In this document: positions 6,380 through 19,861 of the stretch, piece after piece
Layout: the number at the start of each line of letters is the position of its first letter
Numbering within the stretch: the stretch's first letter is position 1
Source: a virus
Length of the DNA: 20,389 bases
Virus record (IMG/VR): IMGVR_UViG_3300021197_001041
Location: 1 to 20,389 of that record
Strand: one strand, 5' to 3'
The notes under the pieces: model-generated
What the model was told of the DNA's origin: nothing
The model's database searches: none
The model's input: the letters and a program-made list of their open reading frames with translations, nothing else
Translations under genes and position numbers: made by a program

Positions 6380-9028
6380 ATGGCTTTAAATTTAATAACT
6401 AGGTACCTCACTACCCGTATCGACAACACAGATCTTGTAGGCTACCCATACGGTAAGGCACAGAATGTACAAGGAGGTGTCGATGGTACAGGTACTCCGT
6501 GGGAGGCCGATATTATCAACGATACACAAGGTTTCCTACAAGCACTTTTGTCAGAAGCTAATATTACACCATCAGGTAATGCTGATATGGTTGGAGTTTC
6601 AGACTACCTAGACAGCCTAAAAACTGTCATAGGTGCAGAGAGCGCTTCTAATATCAAAGTACCTTCTGATGCACCATACAACGCACAAGGTAGTGGTGTT
6701 GATGATACGGTCGCTCTACAAGCCTACATGGATGGAGAAGATGTTTGGTACTTTGACCAAGACTATACGTTCTCTTCTACACTGACATCTACAGACCGTA
6801 AGATCGTATCAATCCCCTCGTCAGGTAGTTTGATAGGAACTTCATTAACAGAAGATTTTATTGTATTTACAAGATGTGATGATAGCATCATAGATGGCTT
6901 GAACCTAGACGTTTCTGGACTAGATGCCACCGCATATATTGATGCTTTTCGTGACGCAGTTAAGTTTGATAACTGTAAGAACTTCACCTACCAGAATTCA
7001 AGGATTGTCGGTGCACCAGTACAAGCACTTAATGTATTGAACGGTTGTGATGGTGCTAAGATCATAAATAACTGGATATTGGATGCGGGACGTAAGCAAA
7101 GACGACACGCTGTAAGTAATATCTCTATCGGTGGTGGTATCCTGTGTTACAACAGTAAGCGGGTGACCATCACAGGCAATCATGTGCTTAGATGTTGGTC
7201 AACTTGTATATACTACTATGGTGATGCCCCTATAGAGTCTAACACGGCATCTAGCCCAGAACAATCTATACTTTCAAACAATATCCTTTACTACTCTCAG
7301 TCAAACGGTATCCGTATTCAGGATGACAACTATGATGGTAATCTAGCAGACCACAATAATAATTCTATACTTGGCAGAGCTAGTGCATCTTGTTCTGTTA
7401 CAGGAAATGTTATTATTGATATGTCCCGTTCAAATATAAGACCTAATGGCGTTGGTCATGTAGTTGATGGTAATGTTTGTATTTACACTGGTCAAGATAT
7501 TTACGGTGTGTCTGATATAAGGGCAGATGGTATAGCAACTAATCATGGAGATGGTTTAGTTATAAGTAACAACTACTTCAAAGAGGTTGGTGCAGCAATA
7601 TGGCTAATACCTAACGGTTTAGTGGATTTTGGTGCAGAGAATATTATTGTTGATAATAATATGCAGGTAGGTTGTAGCTACTTCCTCGCATGTGCACAAG
7701 GTACTACAGTTCCTACTGGGGAAGTATGGCCTGTCACTGGTATAACTGCCACAGGTAATAGAAGTTATAATCCTAGGGTTACACACATACAGTTATCAGA
7801 CACAGGTGATACTGACCTGACAGGTAACCACTTAGTGGGCGCAAACACCGATGGTAATCAATTACCTGCAATAAGATTATTCCGTAATGGTGATCTTACA
7901 CTGCAAGAGAATAAGATAATAGACGCATTATACGGAGTGACAGTTACTACAGCAGATCGTGTAATTGCTAATGACAATACTCTGATAAACACAAGAATCA
8001 ATGGTATGTCTTTTAGTGGTATAACTAGAAAAGTTAATGCATCTAGAAACGATATTGATTTTGGTAATCTCTTTGATAACAGTTTAACCACTACTAATGT
8101 AGCAGATTTTGCATCACTACCTGTCACAGGCACAGCAGGTATATACTACCAGACAGATGACAATGATAAAATCTACCTGTGGATCACTAATGCATACGTA
8201 GAACAAGGTGCTATAGGTATTACTATAGATAATTGTCCTCAGGTACGAATAGAAAGTAATGATTTTGTATCAGACTCAGAAGCTAATAACAGTGGTATAC
8301 TCTTAGCTAGAAGTGTGGATGTGGCAGATGTAATAGGTCATGTTAAGAACAATACCTTCGACACTGAAGTAGGTTTTAACAACCAAGCGAACCCTTGTGA
8401 TGGACTAAACCTACAGCAAAGCGGTAATGTCAGTTCAGGTGTCACTATATTGGAGCATGATACCTCCGTTATACGTTGGGTAGAGAGTGCTGTTAGTGTA
8501 CAAGCTAGTGAGGAGGAATCAGGGACAGGTGTTGTATTCACTGCAAACAACAGGGCACTGACCATACCTGCAGACCTACCGATAGGTTATACTAGGTACG
8601 TAAGTTCAATAGGTAATCACGACTTCCAAATAGTTAATGCAGTCGGTAGTGCAGAGATCCTACAAGGAACACTTACATCTACAGGTGGTGAGATGCTGAC
8701 AGTTACTAAAGTTGCACCTGTCCACTGGGTTGTTAGTGGTGCAGGTAGCGCAGCCGGAGCAACACCTCAAAGTACTTTTGTAGGTGAGATATCAAGTACA
8801 GGAACAGGCACTACATTACCTGCATCTTGGACAGTAGCTAAACTAGGTACTGGTGAATACTCCGTCAATACTAATGGAACAACTAATTACATAGCTACAG
8901 CCAATTCAAGAGTCAATGGTACTCTAGCTACTGTAGTTAACTTTGGTACTAGTTTTGAGATACACACCTATGATGCAGCAGGTACTGCTGTTGATGCAGG
9001 TACATATTTCTCAGCTACAGTATCTTAG
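6380..9028 (+). CDS. Tailspike with parallel beta-helix
   Basis: An 882-residue protein with AAGGAAAAAG before ATG 6380. Residues 1-90 form an N-terminal attachment part (ALNLITRYLTTRIDNTDLVG, GTPWEADIINDTQGFLQALLSEA, a type seen at the start of many tailspikes). Residues about 95-130 carry VPSDAPYNAQGSGVDDTVALQAYMD, the pectate-lyase-like entry ('A.GDGvtDDT.Alq'). From about 130 to 690 there are many short repeats of the right-handed beta-helix kind (ITGNHVL, ILSNNILYYSQSNGIRIQDDN, VISNNYFKEVGAAI, LTGNHLV, RIESNDFV). The last 190 residues form a separate beta domain (SVQASEEESGTGVVF..., then Thr/Gly-rich strands), probably for trimerisation or binding. The likely role is recognition, and possibly enzymatic cleavage, of host surface glycan; catalytic residues cannot be assigned by eye. 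The stop overlaps the convergent deacetylase stop. Confidence 0.85.
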   Translation: MALNLITRYLTTRIDNTDLVGYPYGKAQNVQGGVDGTGTPWEADIINDTQGFLQALLSEANITPSGNADMVGVSDYLDSLKTVIGAESASNIKVPSDAPYNAQGSGVDDTVALQAYMDGEDVWYFDQDYTFSSTLTSTDRKIVSIPSSGSLIGTSLTEDFIVFTRCDDSIIDGLNLDVSGLDATAYIDAFRDAVKFDNCKNFTYQNSRIVGAPVQALNVLNGCDGAKIINNWILDAGRKQRRHAVSNISIGGGILCYNSKRVTITGNHVLRCWSTCIYYYGDAPIESNTASSPEQSILSNNILYYSQSNGIRIQDDNYDGNLADHNNNSILGRASASCSVTGNVIIDMSRSNIRPNGVGHVVDGNVCIYTGQDIYGVSDIRADGIATNHGDGLVISNNYFKEVGAAIWLIPNGLVDFGAENIIVDNNMQVGCSYFLACAQGTTVPTGEVWPVTGITATGNRSYNPRVTHIQLSDTGDTDLTGNHLVGANTDGNQLPAIRLFRNGDLTLQENKIIDALYGVTVTTADRVIANDNTLINTRINGMSFSGITRKVNASRNDIDFGNLFDNSLTTTNVADFASLPVTGTAGIYYQTDDNDKIYLWITNAYVEQGAIGITIDNCPQVRIESNDFVSDSEANNSGILLARSVDVADVIGHVKNNTFDTEVGFNNQANPCDGLNLQQSGNVSSGVTILEHDTSVIRWVESAVSVQASEEESGTGVVFTANNRALTIPADLPIGYTRYVSSIGNHDFQIVNAVGSAEILQGTLTSTGGEMLTVTKVAPVHWVVSGAGSAAGATPQSTFVGEISSTGTGTTLPASWTVAKLGTGEYSVNTNGTTNYIATANSRVNGTLATVVNFGTSFEIHTYDAAGTAVDAGTYFSATVS

Positions 9029-9837
9029 TAACCTAAATCTCTCATCTGTAGGAAATCTAAACCTATAGATGAGGCATGACTTAGAATCTTTTCTAGGTCT
9101 TCAGGACTAATCTTATAATCAGTATCATGGTCTTCACTGATCACATGCATACCGAGGACTAAGGTTAGTCCTTTTTCTTTTGCAGTCTCCATAGCAGCAA
9201 ACAAAGCTTCCTCATATAACCATAGACTATCTACACTTACCCCGAAATAGAAATAACCATCCTCATAAAACCCCTCAGAGTAGTCCATGTTAATACTACC
9301 ACCAAAACCCCTGACAGTCTTGAAATAAGGTTTCAGTTGCATATCTGTCTCTAAAGAATGTATACCAAATGGATAAGCAAAACTATCCACCTCTAAACCA
9401 TATAAACTCATATTCTTCAATGGCTTCTTTACTTCATCTTGTAACCACAAAGCAGCACTATGTTCTGCTACGTACTCTACAGCGTTATAATGGTTTTGTG
9501 TATGTAACCCAATCTCCCAACCACGATCCTGTAGGTCTATTAAGTCCTGACTCATACCGTGATTAAATCCAGATACAAAATAAGTACCTTTAGCTCCGTA
9601 TTTATCAAACAAATATTCATTCTCTAACAAGAAAGGTAAACTAACACCATCATCAATACTTAATACAATACCTGTTTTTTGCTTACGGTCAACTTTCTCA
9701 ACCTCAACAATCACTTCCTTGATCACCTCTACAATCTTAACAACCTCCACTTCTTTAATTACTTCTTTAGTCTCACCACCACAACCAACTACAGATAATA
9801 ACGCTACACCTAGTACTGACATTTTAAGTTTATTCAT
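9025..9837 (-). CDS. Lipoprotein polysaccharide deacetylase (CE4-like)
   Basis: A 270-residue protein with AGGAG before ATG 9837. Residues 1-19 are a lipoprotein signal (positive MNKLKM, hydrophobic core, lipobox VVGC with Cys19). Residues 24-50 are a Lys/Glu/Val-rich spacer. From residue 55 the NodB/CE4 fold appears: motif 1 SIDDG (Asp62-Asp63), GAKGTYFVSG, motif 2 HTQNH (His112, His116) for metal, the motif-3 region with SFAYPFG, and LVLGMHV near the C-terminus. CE4 enzymes remove N- or O-acetyl groups from glycans. As a lipoprotein it would be anchored in the infected cell's envelope, not in the virion, suggesting surface modification, for example receptor masking against further infection. 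It is transcribed against the tailspike gene from its own promoter. Substrate is unknown; Ile in the Thr/Ser position before the Asp pair is a mild deviation. Confidence 0.85.
   Translation of the reverse strand: MNKLKMSVLGVALLSVVGCGGETKEVIKEVEVVKIVEVIKEVIVEVEKVDRKQKTGIVLSIDDGVSLPFLLENEYLFDKYGAKGTYFVSGFNHGMSQDLIDLQDRGWEIGLHTQNHYNAVEYVAEHSAALWLQDEVKKPLKNMSLYGLEVDSFAYPFGIHSLETDMQLKPYFKTVRGFGGSINMDYSEGFYEDGYFYFGVSVDSLWLYEEALFAAMETAKEKGLTLVLGMHVISEDHDTDYKISPEDLEKILSHASSIGLDFLQMRDLGY
9041..9073 (+). other. Long hairpin just past the tailspike stop, inside the opposite gene
   Basis: Left arm 9041-9052 (CTCATCTGTAGG) and right arm 9062-9073 (CCTATAGATGAG) form a 12-bp stem with one G.U pair and a 9-base loop. 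It begins 13 bases after the tailspike stop and falls in the last codons of the opposite-strand deacetylase. Both strands can fold. There is no run of T after either side, so it is not a textbook intrinsic terminator. It may block or process convergent transcripts. Confidence 0.5.
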
Positions 9838-13680: not shown

Positions 13681-14001
13681 TTAATTGTGACCTGATTCCT
13701 TAGCCCAATGGTATAGGGCTACATCAAGAGGGTTATCATAATCTACTGTGCTGATAGTACGACCTAAAAGTCCCACATATTGCTTACTACCGTAATCTTG
13801 TAGGATACGTAGTTCCTTAGTGTCATTGACTTTAATAACCTCGGTTAGTCGGTGGTGTTCTTGTTTACTTACCTGAACTAAAATCTCAGATGGAAGTAAA
13901 TCTTCATCACAATGAGGACAGTACGCATCATATCCCTGTGTCACTGTGTTTAGGTCTTTACTTGCAACTGTTTTACAACGATCGTGTATTACTTTATACA
14001 T
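13681..14001 (-). CDS. Protein of unknown function with a CxxC motif
   Basis: A 106-residue protein. Start taken as ATG 14001, preceded by AGGAGA; the frame's GTG at 14004 is less well placed. It overlaps the end of the methyltransferase gene by eight bases. It contains DAYCPHCDEDLLPSEI, a lone CxxC half of a zinc site, with Cys and His elsewhere (HDRCKTVA, QEHHRL) that might complete it. Then strands (ELRILQDYGSKQYVGLLG) and YDNPLDVALYHWAKESGH. No family recognised. Confidence 0.62.
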   Translation of the reverse strand: MYKVIHDRCKTVASKDLNTVTQGYDAYCPHCDEDLLPSEILVQVSKQEHHRLTEVIKVNDTKELRILQDYGSKQYVGLLGRTISTVDYDNPLDVALYHWAKESGHN

Positions 14002-14671
14002 CACTCTCTCCTATATACTCTTTAGCTATATTGAACATCTTTTCTTCTATCTCAATACCTATAAAGTCACGACCTAAACTAAGGCATACTTTACCTAATG
14101 ATCCACTACCCATAAAGGTATCTACTACAGTATCACCCTTTTTACTATGAAGTTTTAGTAAAGTTTGTAGTACCTGTGGTGGTTTCTGTGTAGGGTGTAC
14201 CCTCGCCTTGCTGCTTAGTGTGGGGCATGTTATCACTTTCTTTTTACCCTGTATACCTACATCATTATCAAAAGGAGCATTCTTACCTCTTACAAAGATG
14301 ATAAATTCCACCTCCTCTTGGTATTTACCATGTGCAAATGGTACGGGGTTGGTCTTCTGCCATATAAGTAAAGTAGTACTCAGCTTTCTAGCTTCGAAGA
14401 ATGCCATAGTCTTAGCTATCTGTTTATTAGAGCAGAAGATAAGAAGATTAGGTGTCTTACACACCCTCAACATCTCAGAAAATACATTCTCCATATCGAA
14501 ACCATTAGAGATTTCTTTAATATGGTTATCGTGTAACTTACGTTTAAGGTTTACATTCTTAGTACCACCATGCGTATCTAACTCATAAGGTGGGTCAGTA
14601 AACACTAGGTCTACACTCTTACTGTCCATTCTCTTTAATACTTCTAGGCAATCTTCGTTGTATAATTCCAT
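13994..14671 (-). CDS. DNA adenine-N6 or cytosine-N4 methyltransferase, beta class
   Basis: A 225-residue protein with GGAG before ATG 14671. It has the catalytic motif IV DPPY at 26-29, preceded by SVDLVFT. A middle target-recognition region includes LIWQKTNPVPFAHGKYQEE. HPTQKP lies at 159-164 and the AdoMet-binding motif I DTFMGSGSLG at 185-193, followed by GRDFIGIEIEE. Motif IV before motif I defines the beta class (N6/N4 family, PF01555 type). These enzymes transfer a methyl group from AdoMet to an exocyclic amine in DNA. No restriction endonuclease is nearby, so it is a solitary phage methylase that could protect phage DNA from host restriction or act in regulation. Target site cannot be read from sequence. 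Confidence 0.9.
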   Translation of the reverse strand: MELYNEDCLEVLKRMDSKSVDLVFTDPPYELDTHGGTKNVNLKRKLHDNHIKEISNGFDMENVFSEMLRVCKTPNLLIFCSNKQIAKTMAFFEARKLSTTLLIWQKTNPVPFAHGKYQEEVEFIIFVRGKNAPFDNDVGIQGKKKVITCPTLSSKARVHPTQKPPQVLQTLLKLHSKKGDTVVDTFMGSGSLGKVCLSLGRDFIGIEIEEKMFNIAKEYIGESDV

Positions 14672-14772: not shown

Positions 14773-14991
14773 TTAGTGGGTTTGTAGGTAAGTCCCTTTA
14801 CTACCTAAATCACTGACCTTAAAACCACCATCAAGGTTAAAAGCAAACTCAGGTGATCCTTGATTAGGGAAATACTCAGGGTTTTTCTTATACCAATCAA
14901 ATACGTAATCACTTGCATATTTATAAGATTCACACATAAGTTCACCTATTAAATCCTCAGAACCATCCCAAGCTTCACATAAGTACTCATC
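14773..14991 (-). CDS. DNA polymerase exon 3 (C-terminal 72 codons)
   Basis: It starts with GAT GAG (Asp-Glu of motif C), then YLCEAWDGSEDLIGELMCES and YKYASDYVFDWYKK, and ends GGFKVSDLGSKGTYLQTH before TAA 14775-14773. The 'DEYLxE...A.E.ashYf....l.G..KxG..W..tH' end is that of T7-like polymerases (T7 ends NWAICH). Confidence 0.92.
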   Translation of the reverse strand, partial: DEYLCEAWDGSEDLIGELMCESYKYASDYVFDWYKKNPEYFPNQGSPEFAFNLDGGFKVSDLGSKGTYLQTH

Positions 14992-17879
14992 CCTACTGTT
15001 ATAGAGTTCGTCATACCTTAAGTAATCTCTACTCTCTGGGGTTTCTCCCAGTGGCGGACTAAATCACGTTCCTATTAGGAACTTCCACGTTTCGACTTCA
15101 CTTGAAGCCTACTCCCTCTCGGGATAGTCTCTGCACACGCTTTCGCTTGCTCAGTATTGCCTTCTACTAACAACATTACACTAGTCTCACGACTATAATA
15201 ATACGCCTAGCTAAGGTTTCACTGAATTAGTGGAATTCTTCGACTCACCTTACGATGAGAAGCCACAATGTTGTCTATGGTAATCTAATACTTGGTAACC
15301 CTTATCTATTAAACCTCTACTTACTAATTCTCTATTAAACCAGTTCACCGCTATCTTTTGACAAACTGCTTCAGTCGGATTCTTCAAAAAGGTTCGTTAG
15401 ACCTCTCTAGCAGCTTTACCTGCATCTCTATGTCACCATAGAAGCCGAGACTATATCTTCACCCTCTGTATTAACAGTAGGGGCTGTGCGCTTCCCTTTA
15501 AAGCTCTCGCTACCACTTGGCGGTATGGTGTTCATAATCCTAAGAGGATCGTATCACCTAGTCGTTGCACCTTCAAACCGATCACTCGGTGAGCTTGGCT
15601 CAGAATTACCTAATATAGGCTTCCTCTGAATTCACACAGTTTCCAACTAAGATTACTCTTAGTACAAGGCAATGATAAATAAAACCTTGGATCAAATAAT
15701 TTATGGCTTTATGGTCAGATTTACAAAAAACCCAATAACCACAGGGTAATGGTATATACCAACCTTTACCTCTTTTATACTTACTCTTATTAGCTTTAAG
15801 CCAAGCACCTACTCCATCTAGACCCATTTGTCTTAAGAAGTTCTCTCTCTTCTCATCACCCTCACTAGCAGGAATACCTAACATAAATGCTAGTAACTCT
15901 CCTGCACAACCAAAGATAACTCCGAAGCTACTACCTTTAGATTTCTTACGTCTAAGAGCTATAGAGTGTAGTAGTTCTGGGTCTTGTGTCTCAATCGCAA
16001 GTTTAAACTCAGCATCTGATACTAACCCAAAATTTCTAGCGGAGTGACAGTGAGCAGACTGTCCTACATAGACCTCTTTGCCTGTCTCATCTTTAACTAC
16101 TTCTTGCCCTGATGCAACAGCTTCATAGTACTCGGAGTTCTTAGCGAAGAAAGCAGCAATAGCTAATTGAGCAGACTTCATATCAGCACCAACCAACCTC
16201 ATACCTTCTTCAGCTATCAAGATACTTCTTATTTCCTCTCCAAGCAGTGCACCTTCTCCGGCTGCATTGACCCAAACTCGGTGGCTTCCCCGAGATGTAG
16301 CAGTAGCGAAGTTATTAACCCCCGCAGGTAACCTACCATCTTCTCTGACATAAGCAAGTAACCCTTTATGTTCAGGATCTTTCACATTAGAGATAAACCT
16401 ACGTCTATGTACTGTAGTGTTATACTCTCCTATATCTTTACCTAGACCTCCTTCTATATTCTCGTAATCTTTCTCACCTATTTTAGGGGAAGTTGGGATC
16501 ACTTGCCTTTTCTTAACCTTCTTGTGCATCTGGTTCTCATACGCTGCTTTAGGCGGATAACTTACCACCATATCATATTCTGCCCTAACCTTAGTGCCGT
16601 TTGAATCCGTCTTATCATTCCATTCAGCTACCTGCTTCAAACCCCCTTTTATCAGCATACCCTTAACAACTTCGTGTTGTGTCATACTACTCTTATTAAA
16701 AGCTACCCTAGTGTGTGGACCACAAATTAAATCTGTATCCTCTGGGGCTACACCAAAATACTGACAACAATTAGCATTCAATACTTTAGTCTCTAATACT
16801 TCTTTCTCTATATCCCAATCTTTAGGTTTAGTATCAGGGTGGTTTGTTTTAATCCACTTAGTTAGGTCAGCTTTCTTTATATAAGTAGGTGACTCACCGT
16901 AACTAATATTAAACCCTGAGTAGTTATTAACTTTCTCTGTCTTATGGAAATTCACTGAGGGTTTCACATAAGGTTTAATAGGTTGTATCTTAGTTTCACC
17001 TGCTCTTGTAACTGTTTCTAGTTCATCGGGTGGTATTTTATTCTCAGGCCAAGACAATGCTCGCATGAGGTCACTTCTAGGGACTTTAGCACCTGCGGGT
17101 TTAACCGTAGGAGGTAGTAAGGGTTCAATCTCACTAGAGAGTTTATCCGTGACTATATCCCACTCTTTAACACACCGTTCCATATGAGGGACATCTGCTT
17201 TAACACCTCTTATTTCTTGTTGTGCTGCGTTCTCTGCATATTCGAACTCAACTTTGTAGGCTAATGTTAGGTCTATGCCTATGTTCTTTAGTTTACGTGC
17301 TTCTTCATCTAAGTATTTATGGCAGAAAGCTTGGGTCTTTGTATCTACTATACATCTATGAAGCATCCAAGCATTCATAACACTAAAATCTTCTACTTTA
17401 GGTTTTTTATTACCTTCTAGTAATGAGTAAGCTAGTAAACCATGACCACTTTTAGCTCCTTTTGGGCAAGGTCGGTCGAACAGTTGCATCTTACTTTGTA
17501 TGAACGTATCAACCCAAGCTTCTGGTGGTATGACACACTTAGGCCATATCTTCTTGATAACTACAGCATCGTATGTAGCTGTATTGTGTACAGAGAGTTT
17601 GCTACCGTTCTTTGCTGCTAAGTACCAGAACCTAACTCCATCTAAAAGTGAGCCATCTCTTTTAGGTATTATGTGTTGTTCTTCTGTATCCTCATCTAGT
17701 ACAGTAGTGTTATCATATTCAGGGTAATCATGGAATACGAACACTTCATCTGATTCTAAATCTCGGCTTACAATACACCAAACATCTTCTGGTTTGTTAA
17801 CAACATCAATAAAACCCCTACATTCTATATCACTAGCAAGTATTCTATTGGTGTATTTACTTTTATCTGGTATTGCCAT
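14773..17879 (-). CDS. Family A DNA polymerase, split by two group I introns
   Basis: The gene joins 17879-15684 (732 codons), 15375-15277 (33) and 14991-14773 (72 plus stop) to give 837 residues. ATG 17879 has GAGGAG in front. An N-terminal 3'-5' exonuclease domain begins ASDIECRGF (DxE, as in T7 DIE), then VHNTATYDAV. The polymerase domain has motif A GADMKSAQL (Asp566), the O helix RKKSKGSSFGVIFG (about 644-656; Phe652 where T7 has Tyr526), then NYLIQG|TEAV, like Pol I QGTAAD, and motif C DYH|DEYLCEA. The unspliced frame stops 25 codons into intron 1 (TAA at 15606) and lacks motif C, so splicing is needed for an active enzyme. It lies after the primase-helicase gene and copies the phage genome with it. 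Confidence 0.93.
14992..15276 (-). ncRNA. Group I intron 2 in the DNA polymerase gene
   Basis: 285 nt on the minus strand, no ORF. The 5' exon ends CCAT; P1 pairs CCAU with GUGG across a 10-base loop, with U.G at the cut. The four bases CAUU before GUGG can pair with the first exon 3 bases GAUG as P10. The core shows a P/J segment GGCAATACTGAGC (close to intron 1's), a GCGAAAGC loop, Q/R TGTGCAGAGACTA, P7.1 TCCC-GAGA-GGGA, P7.2 GGCTTCAAGTGAAGTC, P8 GTTCC-TAATA-GGAAC, S GATTTAGTCC (P7 GACTA/TAGTC) and a P9 hairpin CTGGG...CCCAG. P3 may be TTCCAC with GTGGAA. It ends ...CAGTAGG. Removal joins the His codon to GAT GAG. Confidence 0.9.
15277..15375 (-). CDS. DNA polymerase exon 2 (33 codons)
   Basis: A 99-base exon, in frame with neither stop nor start of its own. 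It encodes TEAVCQKIAVNWFNRELVSR, then GLIDKGYQVLDYH. It aligns with the T7/Pol I segment after Q-G/S (AGALICKLW..., TAADIIKRAM...) and ends with the His of the HDE motif. Read on, the frame meets TAA inside intron 2. Confidence 0.92.
15376..15683 (-). ncRNA. Group I intron 1 in the DNA polymerase gene
   Basis: 308 nt on the minus strand, no ORF. The 5' splice site follows CAAGGT. P1 pairs CAAGGU with GCCUUG, with U.G at the cut. P2 is ACTAAGA-GTAA-TCTTAGT. P3 is CTGTGTG with CGCACAG. The P/J region reads GGTAATTCTGAGCC, P5 is ACCGA-GTGA-TCGGT, the Q/R segment is GAAGGTGCAACGACTA, and P8 is CCCT-a-CTGT with ACAGAGGG. The S segment GAAGATATAGTC pairs GACTA with TAGTC as P7. A P9 hairpin with GTGA loop follows. 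The intron ends ...AATCCG, giving the terminal G. Removal joins QG to TEAV. The P7.1/P7.2-like insert fits subgroup IA. The exon 2 side of P10 is weak. Confidence 0.92.
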
Positions 17880-17947: not shown

Positions 17948-19861
17948 TTAAAAGTTATGATCAGGGTGTATCACCTCTTGCTGTTGACTACCTTTACCAC
18001 CTCGTCTTTGGTTAGTAGTTTCATCTTCTACAGGAAGCCTAGTAGCTGCTAATTCAGGGTTAGCTGCCATGTGGTCATCTAAATCATGTAGAGTCCTCTC
18101 TTTGTAATCATAGTATATGTCACAAGCATGACCTGTAGTGCCTCCTCGTATCTTTGGTAAATCCACACAAGTGGTATTACGTAGGATAGGACATTCTGCC
18201 ATCTTATCTCGATTGATAACTATATTACAATCCGCAGATTGAACGAAAGTACCCGAACCTAGTACATCATATTCAGTAACCTTACGAACCTTACCATCTT
18301 TATCAGAACTGGGTTTCCTAGTATGCATCACATTTATGAATACTATACCTTCCTTTTTCTTCTGCTTCTGCCACATCATGAAATCTTCTTGTGCTTCAGT
18401 TCCTAATGAGCGTAAGAAGTCTGTAAGTGGATCAAAGATAATAAGCTTAGACCCATACTGTGATACTGCTCTTTCTACACAGGCTTTAAGGCTATCAGGA
18501 CTACCACTCCTTTCATCTAATACATGATAGCGGGATTCACCTGCATCATTAGTAAGAAGGTCTTGTATAAGATCTTCGTTAGCAGGGTCATCTAGTACAG
18601 CCAGTGCATCTGCACCTTCTTCAAACCAAGATAGGTTATTCTTCAAGTGCATACTAAGGAAATCTACAGTAAGCTCACCTGTGGTTCGCTCTAACGACAC
18701 AATAGTTGGGACTAATGGACTGTTCCAAAACCAATCATATAGTAGTGCATCAGTGAACAAACTCTTACCTATAGAAGTATCACCCACAAGATTTATGATG
18801 GCCCCAGTGGTTTTTATACCACCACGCATAGCCTTTTGTAGTCTATGTAAGAAAGGCGGTAATGCAATCTTTTCACTGTTTAAAAAATCCTTAGCTTCTT
18901 GTAGTGCACCTGCAGAGTGTTTTAATTCTGATGGTAAAAACTCTTTAGCACCGTAGAAACTACGAACAAATTGTTTCTCCTTACCACTACGCAACATATC
19001 ATTAGGGTCATTACTGGAAATCTGTGCTATACGTACTTTTTCTTTAGGTAATACTGCGGCAGTAGCCTTATTAGCGGCTTGACCTGCTTCATCCATATCA
19101 AAACACAATACTATAATATCGAAAGAGTCACAGAATTCATAGTTAAGTGCTACTTGTTTAGCTGCACTACCTTCCCCTGTAGTAGGACTTACTACCGCAA
19201 TAGGATCATAGTCTCCTTGTTTTCTTCTCTCTTGGTCATCTTTTAACATTTGGAATGCAGATGTCTTACATAACTCACCGCCTACAATAAGCAGATACTT
19301 GCCACCTGTATTAAACTTACTCTGACCTGATAATTGACTATTAACACCAGTGACACCTGTTTTATTCCAAGCTTTAGGCTCATACTTTATCTTGTATCCC
19401 GTAGGCCAAGGACTCCCTGCTGTAGTTTCTGGATACCTCTGAGAGACTACCTTACCTGCACAGTTAAGTTCTGTTAAATGCCCAAAGAATTGACTTATTT
19501 CATCTCTAACACCTCTATGATTGTTAGATACATATCCGAATTTCTTGATGTAATTCCGTACTGCATCTTTTTCCATAGGCTTTGCCTTAGGCTTCTTGAC
19601 GAAATTCTTTTTATCAACAACAACACCACCCTCACAACCTAGTTCACCACCGACACTTGAGTTGTGTGTTTGTTCCATAGTGAAGCTTTGAGAGCATGAG
19701 TAACAGTAGGCATCATACCAAACCTCTCCGTTAGTTTCTTCATTACCACAATGTTCGTAAACAGCGAGAGCATCTGAAGAATTACATTCTTTCTTACCTT
19801 TCACTTCCCCTGCAATACAATGATAATGTTCTACGCAATCCCCTGAATCTAAATCTTTCAA
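17948..19861 (-). CDS. DNA primase-helicase, T7 gp4-like
   Basis: A 637-residue protein starting at TTG 19861, with AAAGGAG seven bases in front; the TTGA overlaps the previous stop. Residues 14-60 form a zinc-binding region (C26-NSSDALAVYEH...YCYSC), less regular than usual because only one close Cys precedes the NSSDA element. A TOPRIM-like primase core has VGGELC (Glu196) and LCFDMDEAG (Asp255, Asp257), then NDPNDML. The RecA-type helicase has Walker A GDTSIGKS (360-367), the catalytic Glu region VSLERTTGE, Walker B KLIIFD (472-477) and NVMHTRKP. The hexamer unwinds DNA and makes primers, acting with the polymerase encoded next. The C-terminus ends ...DHNF; a terminal Phe matters for partner binding in T7 gp4. 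Confidence 0.9.
   Translation of the reverse strand: MKDLDSGDCVEHYHCIAGEVKGKKECNSSDALAVYEHCGNEETNGEVWYDAYCYSCSQSFTMEQTHNSSVGGELGCEGGVVVDKKNFVKKPKAKPMEKDAVRNYIKKFGYVSNNHRGVRDEISQFFGHLTELNCAGKVVSQRYPETTAGSPWPTGYKIKYEPKAWNKTGVTGVNSQLSGQSKFNTGGKYLLIVGGELCKTSAFQMLKDDQERRKQGDYDPIAVVSPTTGEGSAAKQVALNYEFCDSFDIIVLCFDMDEAGQAANKATAAVLPKEKVRIAQISSNDPNDMLRSGKEKQFVRSFYGAKEFLPSELKHSAGALQEAKDFLNSEKIALPPFLHRLQKAMRGGIKTTGAIINLVGDTSIGKSLFTDALLYDWFWNSPLVPTIVSLERTTGELTVDFLSMHLKNNLSWFEEGADALAVLDDPANEDLIQDLLTNDAGESRYHVLDERSGSPDSLKACVERAVSQYGSKLIIFDPLTDFLRSLGTEAQEDFMMWQKQKKKEGIVFINVMHTRKPSSDKDGKVRKVTEYDVLGSGTFVQSADCNIVINRDKMAECPILRNTTCVDLPKIRGGTTGHACDIYYDYKERTLHDLDDHMAANPELAATRLPVEDETTNQRRGGKGSQQQEVIHPDHNF

Follow-up and report, generated by a model that had tools for sequence, protein, structure and literature searches.

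A family A DNA polymerase gene of a marine tailed phage interrupted at two catalytic motifs by predicted group I introns

The window (the whole 20,389-nt stretch of viral DNA analyzed here) carries on its minus strand an open reading frame of 757 codons (17879-15606), which matched the DNA polymerases of PHROG_17 (3.8e-70). A primase/helicase gene on the same strand lies upstream of it (17948-19861; PHROG_239, 1.3e-130), and a DNA methyltransferase gene is located downstream (13994-14671). Elsewhere in the window, a minus-strand ORF (9025-9837) that begins like a lipoprotein and contains a polysaccharide deacetylase domain (PF01522) adjoins a beta-helix tail-fibre-like ORF (6380-9028); its product possibly acts on host surface polysaccharide.

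The polymerase reading frame stopped early, and its last 25 codons (FIYHCLVLRVILVGNCVNSEEAYIR) were found to consist of insert sequence, termed intron 1 below. When the minus-strand segments 17879-15684, 15375-15277, and 14991-14773 were joined, a single open frame of 837 residues plus stop codon resulted, to which the segments contributed 732, 33, and 72 codons, respectively, and in which the motifs QGTEAV and HDEY were restored. Exon 1 (15684-17879) covers the domains on the exonuclease side and runs as far as the QG of QGT. Exon 2 (15277-15375) comprises 99 nt (TEAVCQ...LDYH), and exon 3 (14773-14991) comprises 219 nt including the stop codon (DEYLCEAW...LQTH). The two inserts, intron 1 (15376-15683, 308 nt) and intron 2 (14992-15276, 285 nt), lie on the same strand, are assigned to group I, and contain no ORF. 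Both splice junctions, 15684/15375 and 15277/14991, fall between codons. The first-pass annotation had described an early stop with two downstream pieces restoring the two motifs; its coordinates proved right to the base, and the 837-residue product it named is the open frame obtained here.

The joined product was recognized by the Pfam model DNA_pol_A (PF00476) with 48.5 bits (cut-off 34.3), the match reaching residue 784. The unspliced ORF scored 32.8 bits, below the cut-off, and its match stopped at residue 702. After splicing, the protein thus combines a PF00476 score above the cut-off with the HDE of motif C, as expected for a family A DNA polymerase, and its QGT and HDE aligned with the same motifs of Taq polymerase. 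The polymerase of Pseudoalteromonas phage J2-1 is encoded by an uninterrupted gene and was 62% identical to the joined product over residues 3-837; the genes of Shewanella phage 1/40 and Vibrio phage P018-4 are likewise uninterrupted. Identities to J2-1 amounted to 457/727 residues for exon 1, 22/31 for exon 2, and 47/72 for exon 3. On this comparison exons 2 and 3 are as well conserved as exon 1, whereas sequence cut off by stop codons would not be expected to be so.

Intron 1 follows the CAAGGT of the QG codons, between Gly and Thr of QGT. The Rfam covariance model RF00028 (Intron_gpI) matched it over its full length (model positions 1-253; 15693-15426) with 88.9 bits, well over the curated gathering score of 50 bits. 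The 5' exon ends in U, and the intron ends with ...ATCCG before ACT. The exon strand of P1, CAAGGU (15684-15689), ends at the 5' splice site and pairs with an internal guide sequence, GCCUUG (15670-15665), which was read from the sequence and the RF00028 alignment, so that U15684 and G15670 form a U.G pair at the splice point. The same two sources gave P3, in which CUGUGUG (15633-15639) pairs with CGCACAG (15490-15484). In P7, taken from the RF00028 alignment, GACUA (15559-15563) pairs with UAGUC (15453-15449). Intron 1 pairs imperfectly with the 3' exon in P10. Because no same-site relative was present among the examined loci, the boundaries of intron 1 rest on P1, the terminal guanosine, the reading frame, and exon homology.

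Intron 2 falls exactly at the junction of the His and Asp codons in HDE and ends in G before GAT. RF00028 matched it at 15286-15035 with the full model aligned (35.6 bits; E = 4e-7 in a 1.2-kb search), short of the 50-bit gathering score, a threshold that is a convention and not a structural requirement. The covariance search suggested in the first-pass annotation returned a match at both elements, above the gathering score for intron 1 and below it for intron 2. Homologues of intron 2 at the same site passed the model with 60.0, 75.1, 77.3, and 52.3 bits, and group I membership of intron 2 was accordingly judged by homology. Because of its score, intron 2 was also tested with a nucleotide profile built without the window sequence. 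This profile, made from 12 same-site introns of other phages, matched 15272-15041 with E = 3e-32.

A hand-drawn structure of intron 2 (P1, P2, P3, P4, P5, P7, P8, and P9) was then scored for covariation across 13 aligned introns. Paired cells made up 92.1% of the total, a measure on which the structure is favored because it was drawn from the window sequence, whereas the count of double changes is free of this bias. Two-sided changes were seen in 28 of the 42 pairs, and 105 cells were compensatory. None of 500 shuffles scored as high on pairing, two-sided, or compensatory measures. As a control, partners were slid by 1 to 3 columns, and pairing dropped to 39-44%. The pseudoknotted P3/P7 core is supported by this covariation: 5 of the 6 pairs of P3 (UUCCAC, 15230-15235, with GUGGAA, 15088-15083) and 2 of the 5 pairs of P7 (GACUA, 15125-15129, with UAGUC, 15061-15057) showed two-sided changes, and every position of P7 was paired in all 13 sequences (100% of cells). 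The core helices P1, P3, P4, P7, and P8 are complete in the window copy. In P1, the exon strand CCAU (15277-15280), ending at the 5' splice site, pairs with the guide sequence GUGG (15266-15263), an assignment supported by covariation. The U.G pair at the splice point was invariant in 13/13 introns, and the intron closes with the terminal guanosine noted above. The pair furthest from the splice point switched from C-G to G-C in two relatives whose exon reads TGCAT instead of ACCAT; exon and guide sequence thus change together. By eye, both introns contain hairpin-forming sequence between the 5' strand of P7 and the 3' strand of P3, where P7.1/P7.2 would be a trait of subgroup IA.

An intein reading of the inserts was considered and rejected. 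Stop codons occur in all six frames of both introns, so neither insert is an intein or encodes a homing endonuclease. A Pfam scan found no homing endonuclease domain in the neighboring window ORFs that it covered. Neither element therefore carries the intron-encoded homing endonuclease that defines a mobile (homing) intron, and the endonuclease behind their spread would have been either one that was lost later or one provided by another source. The H|D-site intron of phage J2-1_QLiu-2017 still contains an HNH frame.

The insertion site of intron 2 is shared widely. The boundary CAT^A...G^GATGA was identical in at least 15 distinct related phage loci, comprising the named phages 10AMN, HM1, 249E41-1, J2-1_QLiu-2017, IBT_VpB-34, K470, 424E50-1, 2L372D, S4-7, and VPMCC14 and the metagenomic contigs L009, L025, L027, L029, and L031. 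We take the His-Asp-Glu of motif C to be residues 881-883 of E. coli Pol I. A cyanophage paper lists three known phage polymerase intron sites, 674 (SPO1, SP82, Bastille, and Pf-WMP3), 676 (phiL7), and 881 (PhiI and W31) (PMC3428280). Site 881 having been reported for PhiI and W31, the site of intron 2 was already known. Three candidate parallels were set aside. T7-like Pectobacterium phages that matched the core of intron 2 carry their intron in a head-tail connector gene and not in the polymerase gene, the Pakpunavirus polymerase intron is located at motif B, and the polymerase intron of pYD6-A follows motif A. Pseudoalteromonas phage pYD6-A (locus L053, 1-3472) encodes an N4-like phage polymerase whose gene is correctly annotated as joined; its intron contains an ORF and follows motif A closely, which adds a further catalytic motif to those that host introns.

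An intron at the exact QG|T site was not found among approximately 45 polymerase loci examined, some of which are duplicates. Introns 6 nt upstream of it, after NYLD, were present in PH357, 1.161.O, 1.121.O, and 424E50-1, and in other relatives introns were located in motif B (FGV, codons 654/655) or followed residue 531. The NYLD introns belong to a different sequence lineage and are not close relatives of intron 1. The closest kin of intron 1 were the toprim intron of 1.161.O (77% identity over 217 nt), the TerL introns of qdvp001, H101, and J2-1, and the motif B introns. The terminase is annotated in qdvp001; for H101 and J2-1, the intron hosts are unannotated ORFs that we read as probable terminases. 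The core pattern of intron 1 occurred at four positions in a scan of viral contigs, all of them outside polymerase genes. These relationships suggest that intron 1 arrived from another gene or site and not by a shift from the neighboring NYLD site.

Two introns in one polymerase gene were observed in five public relatives: 424E50-1 (NYLD|Q and H|D, the closest parallel to the window), S4-7 and VPMCC14 (both motif B and H|D), PH357 (motif B and NYLD|Q), and 10AMN (after residue 531 and H|D). Family A polymerase genes of Bastillevirinae contain one, two, or three group I introns, the splicing of which was demonstrated in vitro and in vivo (PMC11878797). The suggestion in the first-pass annotation that two introns in tandem are unusual is not supported by these cases; the arrangement in the window is unexceptional, one more case of a known kind. 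Among the loci examined, the sole feature that seems to lack a match is the exact position of intron 1. The expectation that ORF-based annotation would misread such a gene was borne out, since the annotation of several deposited relatives lists fragments or separate polymerases. In Vibrio phage VPMCC14 (L023, 1446-4660), one polymerase is annotated as DNA polymerase II, III, and IV because of its introns.

Other genes of these phages showed similar patterns. In Vibrio phage R16F (OP793884.1; L060, 591-3081), five separate genes are annotated for the terminase large subunit, and four group I intron matches (72-94 bits) were located between them; a single terminase gene appears to carry four introns. 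Vibrio phage S4-7 (L019, 1626-3035) had four consecutive group I matches (48-96 bits) between two pieces annotated as tape measure protein. In phages H101 and J2-1 (L021 and L022, 2950-4340), several group I matches lay downstream of a large hypothetical ORF, the probable terminase, with HNH endonuclease genes nearby.

We propose, with a probability of about 94%, that the locus codes for a family A enzyme, the replicative DNA polymerase of a tailed marine phage akin to J2-1, and that two independent, self-excising group I introns would be removed to yield the mRNA for the 837-residue enzyme. The presence of group I introns at QG|T and H|DE, as claimed from the outset, is supported by covariance, by homology, and by the empty sites of relatives. 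Each intron would fold around its P3-P7 core and pair its guide sequence with the 5' exon as P1; guanosine-initiated transesterification would excise each from its exons and leave a continuous mRNA to be translated into the polymerase. Intron 2 is an HNH-less member of the family residing at the His/Asp nucleotide of motif C in many related phages, and intron 1 belongs to a lineage whose nearest known members reside in terminase, primase, and polymerase motif B and which here targets QG|T. We infer that splicing occurs, that it is autocatalytic, and that it is needed for an active polymerase, because the unspliced ORF lacks the QGT-to-HDE region. Judged by its sequence, the unspliced product should be inactive as a polymerase.

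A decayed gene, in which degenerate introns have lost the ability to splice and translation of the 757-codon ORF yields a fragment with the exonuclease alone, would fit the low Rfam score of intron 2 and the in-frame continuation that ends 25 codons into intron 1. This explanation is very improbable: the exons beyond the stops are 71% (exon 2) and 65% (exon 3) identical to J2-1 with catalytic residues intact, the core helices of intron 2 are complete, and intron 1 scores far above the threshold. That the interruptions are artefacts of assembly or sequencing is less credible still, indeed hardly conceivable, given that homologous introns occupy the same nucleotide in independent isolates sequenced by other laboratories and that the elements are structured RNAs with covariation, even though the window is a 20-kb viral record, probably a fragment, for which no near-identical record was seen.

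Alternative splicing deserves somewhat more weight but is still improbable. Exon 2 is 99 nt long and the junctions lie between codons, so that joining 15684 to 14991 would skip it in frame and give a product without the region from QGT to His, which would be regulatory or dead. The tandem group I introns of the phage SIOphi terminase indeed showed exon skipping (PMC11878797). However, one length in three would be divisible by three by chance, and the protein sequence accounts for the identical 99-nt spacing in 424E50-1.

Beyond the main reading of a polymerase gene with two self-excising introns, we put forward a more speculative proposal that we consider possible but doubtful: QG|T, at approximately 850/851 in E. 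coli Pol I numbering, would be a site unrecorded for phage polymerase introns, reached by ectopic movement of the terminase/primase/motif B lineage, and intron 1 and the H|D intron together would permit in-frame skipping of the 33-codon catalytic exon. The locus adds one natural example to a phage group with introns at nearly every polymerase catalytic motif, two positions being in QGT and one each in motifs B and C. It leaves knowledge of group I introns unchanged and illustrates that genome annotations of these phages split single polymerases and terminases into several genes.

Compared with known systems, the window resembles SPO1, SP82, Bastille, and Pf-WMP3 in having group I introns in a phage family A polymerase gene; those introns occupy another insertion site (674) and encode HNH nicking endonucleases (PMC3428280). 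The T7-like phages PhiI and W31 share the gene family and the site, 881 being the His of HDE (Bonocora and Shub 2004, as cited in PMC3428280). Their introns encode the HNH endonuclease I-TslI, unlike those of the window; the parallel drawn here is one of gene family and site. The Bastillevirinae differ in their Gram-positive hosts and in their larger introns (mean 802 nt), many of which contain endonuclease genes (PMC11878797). In Vibrio phage 424E50-1 (L016), two group I introns flank a 99-nt exon with QGTEA and the His of HDE, as in the window; its first intron, at NYLD|QGT (Asp/Gln), precedes the QG|T site by 6 nt and is no close kin of intron 1. The H|D intron of J2-1_QLiu-2017 has an HNH frame and that of 2L372D a longer loop, neither of which is present in the window copy. 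With the H|D introns of Vibrio, Pseudoalteromonas, and Aeromonas phages (HM1, 249E41-1, K470, 424E50-1, S4-7, and 2L372D, among others), intron 2 shares the gene, the nucleotide, and homologous sequence and structure.
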